Below are positions 24,790 through 30,889 of a stretch of DNA of 39,856 bases, one piece after another. Source of the stretch: Cyanobacteria bacterium RM1_2_2. GTDB lineage: Bacteria > Cyanobacteriota > Cyanobacteriia > Elainellales > Elainellaceae. The notes under the pieces are model-generated. The model saw only the letters and a list, made by a program, of their open reading frames with translations. It had not been told where the DNA came from and ran no database searches. Position 1 is the stretch's first letter, and each line of letters begins with the position of its first letter. Where the stretch lies: positions 1 to 39,856 of the forward strand of contig JAAUQT010000021.1 of assembly GCA_012033495.1 (NCBI GenBank). The letters are read 5' to 3'. The position numbers were made by a program, and so were the translations under genes.

Positions 24790-25442
24790 CAACGCATGAA
24801 GCGCTAAACACCGCATTCTAGACGCAAATCTAAAAAGTAGCTGAACTTTTCCCAATTTTTCTAATGCGTTAACAAAAAGTCTTCCCTATACCGAGACAAA
24901 CAGCCCCTGATCATATCGATCAACTCTTGGCAGTCGGTAGGCATCAGCAATTCTCAGCTTGATGTACTGAAATCAGCGTTGTCAACGGCTTTCGTCCTCA
25001 ACTTCTTGAACGAAGAATGCGGGTTGTAGCCGATCGAATGGCTTGAAATCAGCGATTTGAGTAAGAATCATTCTCATCCTGAGAATTGCTGTCGAGAAGG
25101 ACTCTTGACTTCTAGGGGCTGTCATCCCTTCCAGCTAAAACCTTGATCATGGCAGGCGACAGCCCCTACCCTGTTGGAACGGGCGCGATCCGGCTGATGC
25201 GACCAGCGTTTGATCCTGCATGGATGACGCGCCCTAGACTACATTATTTCCGATTAAGTCTAGTATATTCTCTAAATTTATGATTGAAGTATGGTAGCGA
25301 CTCCCCTAGGCTGGAAACAATAGCACTGGCTTGTCCAGCAACTTTTGCCCAGCAACTTTTGTCAAGCAATTCAATTATTGACAGGGACTTCCCACCCATC
25401 GACCCATTCACTCCCCAATGAAAAGCTGTAAATGGAGCAAAA
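24790..25442. other. Intergenic region before the aspartoacylase gene
   Basis: The stretch contains an 11-bp perfect inverted repeat (25113-25123 and 25158-25168) and a tandem 14-bp repeat, CCAGCAACTTTTGC then CCAGCAACTTTTGT, near 25336-25364. No coding frame is convincing. Confidence 0.5.
25113..25168. repeat. Inverted repeat hairpin
   Basis: TAGGGGCTGTC and GACAGCCCCTA are exact reverse complements separated by 34 bases. This is the typical form of a dispersed cyanobacterial intergenic repeat. It has no T-run to mark it as a terminator. Confidence 0.6.
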
Positions 25443-28291: not shown

Positions 28292-29138
28292 TTAACGCCA
28301 AGCCGCCAAGCCGCGCACTGTCATGTAGACTGATAGACCGATTAAGAAGGCGCGAAACAGCGTTCCTACTATCCGGTCAGGCAGACGGGGCAGCAGTCGC
28401 GTACCGAACTGAGCGCCCAAAATGCCACCCAAACCCAGACAAATTCCCGGAATCCAGAGAACATTGTTATTCCAGGTGTGCTGAGCCAAGCCGGAGATAG
28501 AGATCAGCACGATTGCACCCAAACTGGTACGCACGGCTGACTTAATTGCCTCATCGAGAAATAGCATCTGCAACGGAACCATCACCACGCCACCGCCAAC
28601 GCCAAACAGCCCCGAAAGAAGACCTGCCAATAGCCCAATTGCCGCTGTGGGTGCGACTTTAACGGGCGCAACTTTGAGCGAGGAGAGAGCCTGCACCTCG
28701 CTAACTTGGCGGTTTTCAAGTTCTGTTGGCGTCTGGTGTTGAAGCTTTTGCTTTTGCTTCTGCTGTAATTTTTGCCGCAGATTCATCAAGGAAATCGTAA
28801 CCAACAGCAGGGCTGCAAACGCTAGAGACAGCCAAGCGTCTGGAAGCCGATCTCCCAGCCAAGCCCCCACCTGAGCCGTAATAATGCCAAACCCCGACAG
28901 CAGTAGGGACACGCGCCAATTTAATTCGCCTGCTTTTAAGTTGCGCCAACTGCCCGACAGCGAACTCAGCAGCACACCCACCAAGCTTGTTGCTGTTGCT
29001 TGCACCAGCGGCACCCCCCAATACTGTCAGAGAGGGAACCATGAGCAGCCCACCTCCAATGCCCAGCAAGCCGGATAGCACACCGGTGAAGGTTCCTAAA
29101 ATCAGCAGTAAAACCCAACCTGTGGGCGTTTCTAACAT
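28292..29138 (-). pseudogene. TSUP (TauE/SafE) family permease, frameshifted
   Basis: Two frames together encode a 281-residue permease of the sulfite exporter TauE/SafE family. The 5' part from ATG 29138 (AGGAG ribosome site upstream) has GLLGIGGGLLMVPSLTVLG. The 3' part carries VQATATSLVGVLLSSLSG, a Gln/Lys-rich cytoplasmic linker, and the repeated half with GLFGVGGGVVMVPLQML. Removing one base from the C6 run at 29014-29019 (G6 on the coding strand) gives TVLGVPLVQATATSLVG, the expected family sequence. Such proteins move sulfur or organic anions across the inner membrane. It is an error or a recent frameshift, because the rest of the sequence is well kept. Confidence 0.82.
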
Positions 29139-29208
29139 CAGTGTGGCTCCTGTGCTCCCAACTCCCGTAGTTTACCAGGGCTTCTTCGCCTAGCTCATCT
29201 GACAGTGT

Positions 29209-29892
29209 TTATCCCACAGCGCTACTGTCTACATCTCGTATCACCTTTCCTAACGCTGTATCGCTGAGATGCTCGGTATGAATGCCGTTAAACCAAATTT
29301 CTGAGTTCTGCACGCACAGCTTTAGGATCGAACCATTGGGCACCGAAAAGGCGGTGATCAGAGAGTAAAATTGCCGCATTCGCTTGGCGTTTGCCTCAGT
29401 CGATCGGGTCAACACTGCCCACACAAAGGCGCGAATAAACCGACCGTGGCTAAAGATGGGAACAAACTCTGCTTCTAACTGCATTAGTTTGGTTTGCACA
29501 ATTTCAACGCGAGCTAGCAAATCAGCAAAAGATTCGGCTCCCGCCCCATCGATGTATAGAGGATCATTGCGCTGCCAGTAGGCGTCACTCAGCGGCAGAC
29601 GGTGTTCAATGGTGCTGCCTTGATAGCGGGCAGATGCCAAATAGGTGAATTCCTGCACGGGCCATTCTGCATGGGGCACGTTCGGGAAGCGGGCGCGGGT
29701 TGGCTGAGCGGTTTGTTGAGTTCGTTGATAGGGAGAAGTCACAATCAAATCGGGCGATTGGGTGAACGTCTGCGCGACTTGCTGAGCTTGCCGCTCGCCT
29801 TTGGCAGTAATGGGGGTAATGCTCGGATCGACTGTAGGCAATCCTGCATTTGCTTCGCTTTCACCATGTCGAATGAACCAAACCGTGGACAT
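29209..29892 (-). CDS. Histidine phosphatase family protein
   Basis: The 227-residue protein belongs to the histidine phosphatase (phosphoglycerate mutase-like) superfamily. The catalytic FIRHGESEANAG is at residues 5-16, the second arginine in TSPYQRTQQTA near 60, the acidic region GAGAESFADLL near 116, and the second catalytic His in FSHGRFIRA near 150. The substrate is unknown. The ATG at 29892 places the RHG motif in its normal N-terminal position; the frame is open further up to 29931. It lies 20 bases downstream of a disrupted paralogue and probably arose by tandem duplication. Confidence 0.88.
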   Translation of the reverse strand: MSTVWFIRHGESEANAGLPTVDPSITPITAKGERQAQQVAQTFTQSPDLIVTSPYQRTQQTAQPTRARFPNVPHAEWPVQEFTYLASARYQGSTIEHRLPLSDAYWQRNDPLYIDGAGAESFADLLARVEIVQTKLMQLEAEFVPIFSHGRFIRAFVWAVLTRSTEANAKRMRQFYSLITAFSVPNGSILKLCVQNSEIWFNGIHTEHLSDTALGKVIRDVDSSAVG

Positions 29893-29912
29893 ATGTTGGA
29901 AGTATCTCGCAG

Positions 29913-30778
29913 CTAAGTTTGATCGAGCCACTCATCATCCATCAACGATAAATGAGCAGTGCTCATTCCAGTGAACCAGATTTCTGAAGCCCGAACTTGT
30001 ACTTTAGAGATTGCACCGTTCGGAACTGATGATGCGGCAGCAAAGTGATGCAACCGCCACATTTGCTGAGCACTCAGCTCAGTCGATTGCATCATCAGCG
30101 TCCAGATCACCGCCCGAATAAACCAGGCATGGCTAAACACCAACACCAAAGCATCTGCATTGCCTGCCTCTGTTGCAAGTTGCTGTAACCGATCTTGAAT
30201 CAGCCTGACGCGGATCATTAAACTCGAAAAGGATTCGGCTCCGGCTCCACTCACATATTCTGGGTCGCCCCGCTGCCAATCAGCAATTCCAAATTAGAAA
30301 ACTCTATGGCTCAAAAGCCGTGCTCAGCAAGGGTTTAACTTTTCACAGGAAAACATCTGATCTCTGGAATGACGCAAAATCGTTCCAAATTTGGAATTGC
30401 TGGCTGCCAATAGTCTTGATCGAGCCAGCGGCGCTGTTCTGGGGTGTTGGCGTTCTGATAGCACTCGGCGGCAAGATAGCTAAACTCCTGGACGGGCCAT
30501 TCGGTCTGGGATGCAGTTGGAAATCGCTGGCAGGTTGGTTCAGCCGTTTGCTTGGTGCGCCACAGCGGAGAGGTGACAATCAAATTCGGGCAGTGGGTTA
30601 CAGTTTCAGCGATTCGCATCGACTGACGCTGACCTCGCTGCGTTAAGGTGCCCAAGTTTGAGGCGTGAGCCGTCTGACTTCCCATAGGGACTGTCTGACT
30701 CAATTGAGTCTCTGCCTGGGCCGACATTGCGGCATTGCCTGCGGTTTCACCATGCCGAATTAACCAAAGCGTGAGCAT
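29913..30778 (-). pseudogene. Histidine phosphatase paralogue disrupted by a small mobile element
   Basis: The 5' fragment (from ATG 30778) has LWLIRHGETAGN, the VTSPLWRTKQTA arginine motif and ends its true sequence at LDQDYWQ. The 3' fragment resumes at RGDPEYVSGAGAESF and carries the second catalytic His in VFSHAWFIRA. Between them lies a 122-bp element plus a 9-bp duplicated target (131 bases in total). Removing 131 bases gives an exact 735-base frame (244 residues) reading DQDYWQRGDPEYVSGAG, collinear with the intact paralogue next door. As it stands, the frame hits a stop inside the element, so neither fragment alone has both catalytic histidines. Confidence 0.93.
30272..30411. mobile_element. 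122-bp MITE-like element with 9-bp target duplication
   Basis: The element spans 30281-30402. It has perfect 15-bp terminal inverted repeats, CAGCAATTCCAAATT at 30281-30295 and AATTTGGAATTGCTG at 30388-30402. The 9-bp direct repeat GCTGCCAAT flanks it at 30272-30280 and 30403-30411. It codes for nothing, so it must have been moved by a transposase encoded elsewhere. Nine-base duplications are made by, among others, IS4-, IS1- and IS903-type transposases; the parent is not identified here. Confidence 0.93.
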
Positions 30779-30889
30779 GAGATAAGGGGCTGCCTAAAAT
30801 TCCTTAGAATGGGGAAGTCGGGTTTTGCTGCTAAAGCAACGGAACCTGAGATTAGCATAGACAGGTAGGAGAACCCTAATATAACGGCA

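Follow-up and report, generated by a model that had tools for sequence, protein, structure and literature searches.

Short, non-coding elements with inverted ends, some of them disrupting genes, have been described from cyanobacteria. Among them is Nezha, which is named in passing or in reference lists in PMC10969869 and PMC3733652. The MITEs of Anabaena sp. 90 were placed in PMC3542288 among those without an evident resemblance to insertion-sequence ends of the same genome. In this they differ from the MITE described here, whose ends match a resident insertion sequence. The 187-bp MITE of Microcystis PCC 7806 is more alike, as it lies within a gene and its ends match a resident insertion sequence; its ends (GGCTCTTCG), its 8-nt duplications and its ISL3-family parent, as given in PMC11448079, nevertheless assign it to a different group.

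Another close system is Tn5/IS50 (IS4 family), since the predicted model of a related transposase, from genome G043, is most similar to Tn5 transposase. IS50 makes a 9-bp target duplication, and the Tn5-type DDE transposase acts as a dimer, with both ends held before cutting. In the IS50 work of Goryshin et al. 1994, activity of artificial donors of 66-174 bp reportedly oscillated with a period of ~10.5 bp. These short derivatives were constructs, whereas the length signal described here comes from natural genomes.

The work of Goryshin et al. 1994 is cited among experiments varying the distance between transposon ends in PMC3464196, where a helical dependence on end spacing is also cited for transposition. 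The same source describes the internal eliminated sequences (IESs) of Paramecium, of which 93% are shorter than 150 bp and whose natural sizes have a ~10 bp period, fitted at 10.2 bp; this period was explained by a looped excision complex with both ends on the same helical face (PMC3464196). Like the elements described here, IESs are short, transposon-derived and of periodic natural size, but they are eukaryotic, are excised by a domesticated piggyBac transposase and are not bacterial MITEs (PMC3464196). A MITE inside a gene is the outcome of an ordinary, known process; the length quantisation proposed below is the new part. Among the papers listed by searches of the open-access literature, no report of length quantisation in bacterial MITEs was found, and when the end sequences were searched as four 10-letter strings, the papers among the matches listed looked unrelated by title.

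A 122-bp insert in a histidine-phosphatase gene

The window, i.e. the whole stretch of DNA analysed (39,856 bp), is one contig (C154) of a 5.54-Mb draft genome in 335 contigs. The insert and its surroundings comprise the following features:

29209..29931, minus strand: intact paralogue, histidine phosphatase (His_Phos_1, E 2.7e-23), used as collinear reference for the pre-insertion frame
29913..30271, minus strand: interrupted histidine-phosphatase gene, 3' part (His_Phos_1, E 3.2e-4, just under the cut-off)
30272..30280, no strand: left copy of the 9-bp target-site duplication (GCTGCCAAT)
30281..30402, plus strand (orientation follows alignment A2): MITE of 122 bp, which leaves no room for a transposase gene
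30281..30295, plus strand: left terminal inverted repeat, CAGCAATTCCAAATT
30388..30402, minus strand: right terminal inverted repeat (CAGCAATTCCAAATT on the minus strand)
30403..30411, no strand: right copy of the 9-bp target-site duplication
30335..30778, minus strand: interrupted histidine-phosphatase gene, 5' part (Pfam His_Phos_1, E 3e-11)

The terminal inverted repeats are perfect over 15 bp, the right one being the exact reverse complement of the left, and the two copies of the target duplication are identical. Both features had been reported in an earlier note made from the sequence alone. The same note gave the non-coding body as 122 bp; this length is correct for the whole element including both 15-bp ends, and the stretch between the ends is 92 bp. 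When the flanks were joined by script and 131 bases (the element and one duplication) were removed, a frame of exactly 735 bases was obtained, consisting of 244 codons and a terminal stop. Across the junction, LDQDYWQ is followed directly by RGDPEYVSGAG, collinear with the paralogue (...LSDAYWQRNDPLYIDGAG...), and the pre-insertion frame proposed in the earlier note was thereby reproduced. The insert of 131 bases is a frameshift and the protein is truncated: the open frame of the 5' part enters the MITE and stops at 30335.

Homologues of the interrupted phosphatase were found in four other genomes when 13 genomes, own included, were searched. All four are uninterrupted across the insertion site (YWQRNDP, YWQHADP, YWQQNDP and YWQHNDP). 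They are distant from the window's gene, with 93-99 identical residues over 233-239 aligned, and therefore do not provide an empty site of the same allele. As the paralogue is still intact, loss of the interrupted gene may be tolerated. A TauE/SafE gene adjoins the tandem histidine-phosphatase genes on the same strand (window positions 28292-30778).

Copies of the element in the same genome

The genome was searched for the 15-bp end with at most one mismatch, and the reversed pattern was used as a control. The end was found at 32 places, against 0 for the control. Six of these places are the ends of three elements, namely the window's copy, C254:23869-23990 and C311:9655-9776, and the C254 copy reappears at the start of the joining contig C14, which gives a seventh. 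Insertion-sequence ends, described below, account for 16 places at contig ends and three further places, while the remaining six are single-mismatch matches unlike element ends.

The window's copy differs by one base from the C254 and C311 copies (121/122 bases identical), and each of the three has its own perfect 9-bp duplication (GCTGCCAAT, TCTTTGAAT and ACGGTTTGC). A chance origin is excluded, because the same 122 bp occurs at two other places, each with a different perfect duplication. No open frame of at least 60 codons is interrupted by the C254 copy, which lies 25 bp from a contig end, or by the C311 copy. Since the copies are separated by one substitution and all three duplications are perfect, the view that the 122-bp insert broke the histidine-phosphatase gene recently is supported, in agreement with the earlier note, which had also anticipated related copies. 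The characteristics of a MITE are found together here: 122 bp without a transposase gene, 15-bp inverted ends, a 9-bp duplication at 3/3 copies, three copies in the genome, and a resident element with the same ends at the 16 contig-end places and at C14, C51 and C274.

Two other elements were observed in this genome. The first (24945..25091 of the window, no strand) is decayed and belongs to the same transposon group; it is 147 bp long, with ends CAGCAATTCTCA and unmatched flanks. Its body belongs to a different family from that of the 122-bp MITE and clusters with a 153-154-bp family, and its length is off the grid described below, as expected for a decayed copy. The other (G000:C174:35003-35145) is 143 bp long and has a perfect 9-bp duplication, so that at least two MITE body families have been mobile in this genome.

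The parent insertion sequence and its transposase

An insertion sequence with the same ends, which the earlier note had suggested might exist, was located through three ends identical to the MITE end, at C14, C51 and C274, and through the 16 places at which an end with one change, CAGCAATTCTAAATT, runs off the contig end (15 after 124-127 bp, one after 98 bp). These 16 places consist of eight of the left type, leading into the transposase start, and eight of the right type, holding the transposase C-terminus. We infer from this at least eight copies of the insertion sequence, with their interiors collapsed in the assembly. The right end exists in two variants (C33 and C101 vs C80, C250, C286, C301, C326 and C333), probably because the genome contains two subtypes of the parent element. 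None of the collapsed interiors could be located in the draft assembly, which gave one transposase match. The long copy at C51 breaks off where the contig ends, with its transposase split between two frames, and no intact transposase is readable in this draft genome. The active parent transposase postulated in the earlier note is accordingly borne out as regards resident insertion-sequence ends, and only in part as regards activity. The opposite case raised there, a genome with neither another copy nor an insertion sequence with these ends, is not what was found, as both are present.

A search of 60 genomes, own included, with the larger fragment of the C51 transposase gave a match in 16. A complete relative in G026 is ~1420 bp long and has ends CAGCAATTCTCA; a 9-bp duplication was seen at each of the three copies compared. 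Four copies were fetched from this genome, and the size was obtained by comparing two of them with the first. Transposase sequence models gave only weak sub-threshold scores (IS701, IS4, DDE_Tnp_1 and DDE_Tnp_1_assoc), with 13.6-20.6 bits for the NCBIfam IS701/IS4 models against cut-offs of 152-170 and 21.6 for Pfam DDE_Tnp_1 against a cut-off of 23. One plasmid relative of the transposase is annotated as ISNCY. Because the curated cut-offs were not reached, we do not file the parent transposase as a member of the IS4 family.

The transposase of G043 was modelled with AlphaFold from a seven-sequence alignment (pLDDT 68, pTM 0.70), and the model was compared with the PDB using Foldseek. The best five matches were Tn5 transposase chains (E 5e-10 to 5e-9), followed by the transposase inhibitor (2.8e-6) and then by piggyBat (1e-4). 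The structural match to Tn5 is loose, with TM-scores of 0.43-0.49, an rmsd of 8-12 and 13-14% identity. The defining layout of IS4/Tn5-like transposases is an RNase-H fold with a beta-rich insertion before the catalytic Glu, and the Tn5 matches of the predicted model suggest this layout. The IS4 transposase signature is Y(2)R(3)E(6)K; in the conserved GRxRWKxENENxNxLK of alignment A1, R(3)E is present, Y is absent and the spacing of K is different. The parent is predicted to resemble Tn5/IS50 by its fold and by its duplication size, while differing from it in the low identity, the TM-score below 0.5 and the absence of any curated IS4 cut-off reached. That the insert is a MITE, and that its parent is of this type, we regard as almost certain.

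Relatives in other genomes

When the 122-bp element was used as query against 60 genomes, own included, a match was obtained in one other genome, G013, with up to 88% identity. In a class-wide draw, 19 of 388 genomes had a match, own included, many of these matches being short. A contig scan for two exact ends 80-110 bp apart yielded ten contigs from six cyanobacterial genomes.

A gapless alignment over 122 columns was obtained for 19 distinct 122-bp copies from 12 genomes, which carry four end types. These are 19 of 28 rows, picked by length and family, with six palindromic-repeat bodies and three copies of 123 bp omitted; as the alignment set was picked at 122-123 bp, the gaplessness is partly built in. 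A cluster assembled without regard to length has 27 members: 22 of 122 bp, three of 146 bp and one each of 139 and 152 bp. Columns 10, 11 and 13 co-vary between both ends in all rows, and columns 15-17 do so in part. As this one ungapped body carries four end types, its 122-bp lineage may have followed different transposase subgroups, with both ends changing together.

Several further types of element were seen in these genomes. G013 contains a high-copy element of ~208 bp with the same ends, situated at many contig ends; the size is uncertain because the sole spanning copy (C518:13987-14194) has a 13-N gap, and it is outside the length range tested for phasing. G007 (81 or 84 matches, depending on the pattern) and G296 contain fold-back elements, in which long palindromic arms change together from copy to copy and the total length is mostly 132 or 131 bp. 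Palindromic-repeat bodies with extra repeat insertions are found in G316, G269, G379, G361, G376 and G391, and supply many off-grid lengths (137, 145, 148, 149 and 167 bp).

Lengths of the elements

End patterns were applied to 388 genomes at 110-140 bp (looser ends), 142-201 bp and 61-109 bp, giving matches in 53 (some by chance), 32 and 15 genomes, respectively. Selected genomes were also scanned at 111-170 bp, and length 141 was covered in these scans only. Since only intact 9-bp ends fit the patterns, decayed copies escape detection, and the element counts, based on the matches listed and fetched per genome, are minimum values. From 166 distinct pattern matches (fetched loci and the window), 18 were judged to be chance matches and excluded from the count; 136 elements of 110-200 bp were retained. 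The target duplication is perfect in 68 of these 136 elements and agrees in at least 8/9 positions in 84. An insertion shared by two genomes is in some cases counted twice, as for a 146-bp element with agreeing flanks in G196 and G160. Further scans covered 63 genomes (four newly searched) and 42 genomes (none new). The sole element from a newly searched genome (G391) is 167 bp long and off grid; these scans also listed further 122-bp elements in G269 and G195 (one each) and two elements of 137 bp in G269.

The lengths show peaks at 122 (30 elements), 131-133 (33), 142-143 (10), 153-154 (19) and 164-165 bp (6), and sparse groups at 175-176 (2) and 182-186 bp (8). The valleys between the peaks are thin and not empty: at least five elements lie at 127-130 bp, six at 134-139 bp and nine at 144-152 bp, the last compared with ten in the 142-143 bp peak. 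Among the matches listed, 42 of 50 in G007 are exactly 132 bp long, with bodies in several sequence variants, and 17 of 25 in G296 are exactly 131 bp long, the sole copy of another family there being of 141 bp. Off-grid lengths with good duplications are 117, 128, 129, 137, 139, 145, 146, 148, 161, 167 and 198 bp. The off-grid 137-bp form has at least four copies in G269, and a perfect duplication accompanies one G379 copy and one of the two copies fetched from G269.

To describe the periodicity, one modal length was taken per body cluster (blastn single linkage), and the resultant length R at period 10.5 was compared with a smooth null. The test was post hoc, as the pattern had been noticed first, and its outcome depends on the clustering. 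For the 17 clusters with target duplications (modal lengths 122, 122, 123, 131, 131, 131, 132, 133, 133, 142, 142, 144, 154, 164, 175, 176 and 183 bp), R(10.5) was 0.826, a value reached by 0 of 200,000 smooth-null draws. The scan-corrected p was ~5e-5, the floor of that simulation, and R remained at least 0.815 when any one cluster was left out. The fitted step was 10.51 bp, with a residual SD of 1.0 bp and a bootstrap range of 10.20-10.93. For 22 clusters, R was 0.589 and the smooth-null p 5e-4, or 0.0065 after the period scan. Phasing per element was nearly equal without (R 0.60) and with a duplication (R 0.68).

Below 110 bp, where 26 of 28 matches were listed, there was no phase (R 0.21, 7/26 on grid). 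Fifteen of these were fetched, one per genome, and four (71, 80, 83 and 83 bp) have perfect 9-bp duplications. Many of the 26 short elements look like collapsed fold-back bodies, a change that would leave the duplication in place.

Alternative explanations

The regular lengths could alternatively derive from a few ancient founder elements with inherited size and no transposition rule, which we consider unlikely. Large families do dominate the data, as one cluster holds 27 elements (22 of exactly 122 bp) and another 26, and with the loosest clustering of all elements (n=13) the statistic is weakened to p 0.02, and to 0.32 after the period scan. Common sizes are, however, found in different bodies: the palindromic-repeat family of G316 and G269, with a body of its own, has eight copies of exactly 122 bp. 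Phasing is moreover retained in the duplication-bearing subset when clustering is loosest (n=8, R 0.855, p 0.0015, scan p 0.013). Steps of ~10 or 21 bp also occur inside some families, such as 165/175/184/185 (G195) and 132/143/154; in G131 the within-family sizes are 142/164, but also 161. Among offsets from the family mode, 14/22 are on phase vs 0.38 expected, a modest excess.

A second possibility is that internal deletion in the resident insertion sequence gave rise to the element, whose ends are identical to three insertion-sequence ends over 15-16 bp. The match is confined to these first bases: MITE positions 17-40 agree with the insertion-sequence ends compared in 4-8 of 24 bases, about chance, and the body is instead homologous to the 122-bp elements in other cyanobacterial families. 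Derivation of the body from the insertion sequence was rejected because the similarity ends after 15-16 bp, and we consider this origin of the element very improbable.

Marginally less probable still is that the 122 bp are a retained functional part, such as a structured RNA, a regulatory hairpin or an in-frame segment. Families share a conserved body, and pairing between the two ends is possible, but the insert (131 bases) shifts the frame and truncates the protein, and the paralogue and the four homologues in other genomes are without it. Covariation is confined to the end region. An internal hairpin noticed in the body by eye (AACCCTT...AAGGGTT) was rejected, with 74.4% of cells paired vs 77.0% in shuffles and one cell with a double change, and RNAalifold pairs the ends only. 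Rfam gave no match inside the element even at E up to 1, and two weak matches within 29900-30800 lie outside it, far below the gathering scores.

An assembly artefact has a negligible probability: the assembly is a draft and the C254 copy near a contig end is seen again at the start of C14, but flanks and duplication are different for every copy, the structure recurs in independent genomes, and the MITE copies, at 122 bp shorter than the 124-127 bp at which most contigs were broken by the longer repeat, could presumably be assembled through.

Proposed mechanism and implications

The best explanation overall, and a very probable one, is a trans-mobilised MITE with a Tn5/IS50-like parent, belonging to a group whose lengths step by ~10.5 bp. 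The 122-bp non-coding element would be moved in trans by the transposase of the insertion sequence with which it shares 15-16 bp at the ends. The same transposase, with a predicted Tn5/IS50-like fold, would make the 9-bp target duplications, and DDE synapsis and cut-and-paste would proceed as in Tn5. In DNA near or below the persistence length, the ends would meet only when bending and twist permit. In-phase lengths would then amplify and others mostly not, so that bodies would be free to differ while lengths would tend to step by ~10.5 bp from 122 bp upward.

We read the length clustering as helical phasing that limits the end synapsis of very short elements, by analogy with the Paramecium IESs, and consider this mechanism likely to underlie the lengths. 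With slightly less confidence, we propose that MITEs of this Tn5-like group are found preferentially at lengths between 122 and at least 185 bp that follow L ~10.5 x (n + 0.6) bp, since ends separated by so little DNA would need to be in torsional phase for synapsis.

If this is true, genomes would constitute a natural experiment on helical phasing for a bacterial transposase, and the in-vivo helical repeat and synaptic-complex geometry could be read from them through MITE sizes. End synapsis would also be limited in nature in the way shown for artificial donors, and sizes shared among MITE families with different bodies would be explained. A search rule for such elements would combine the ends with an allowed length, and size, besides sequence, would decide which short derivatives become MITEs.
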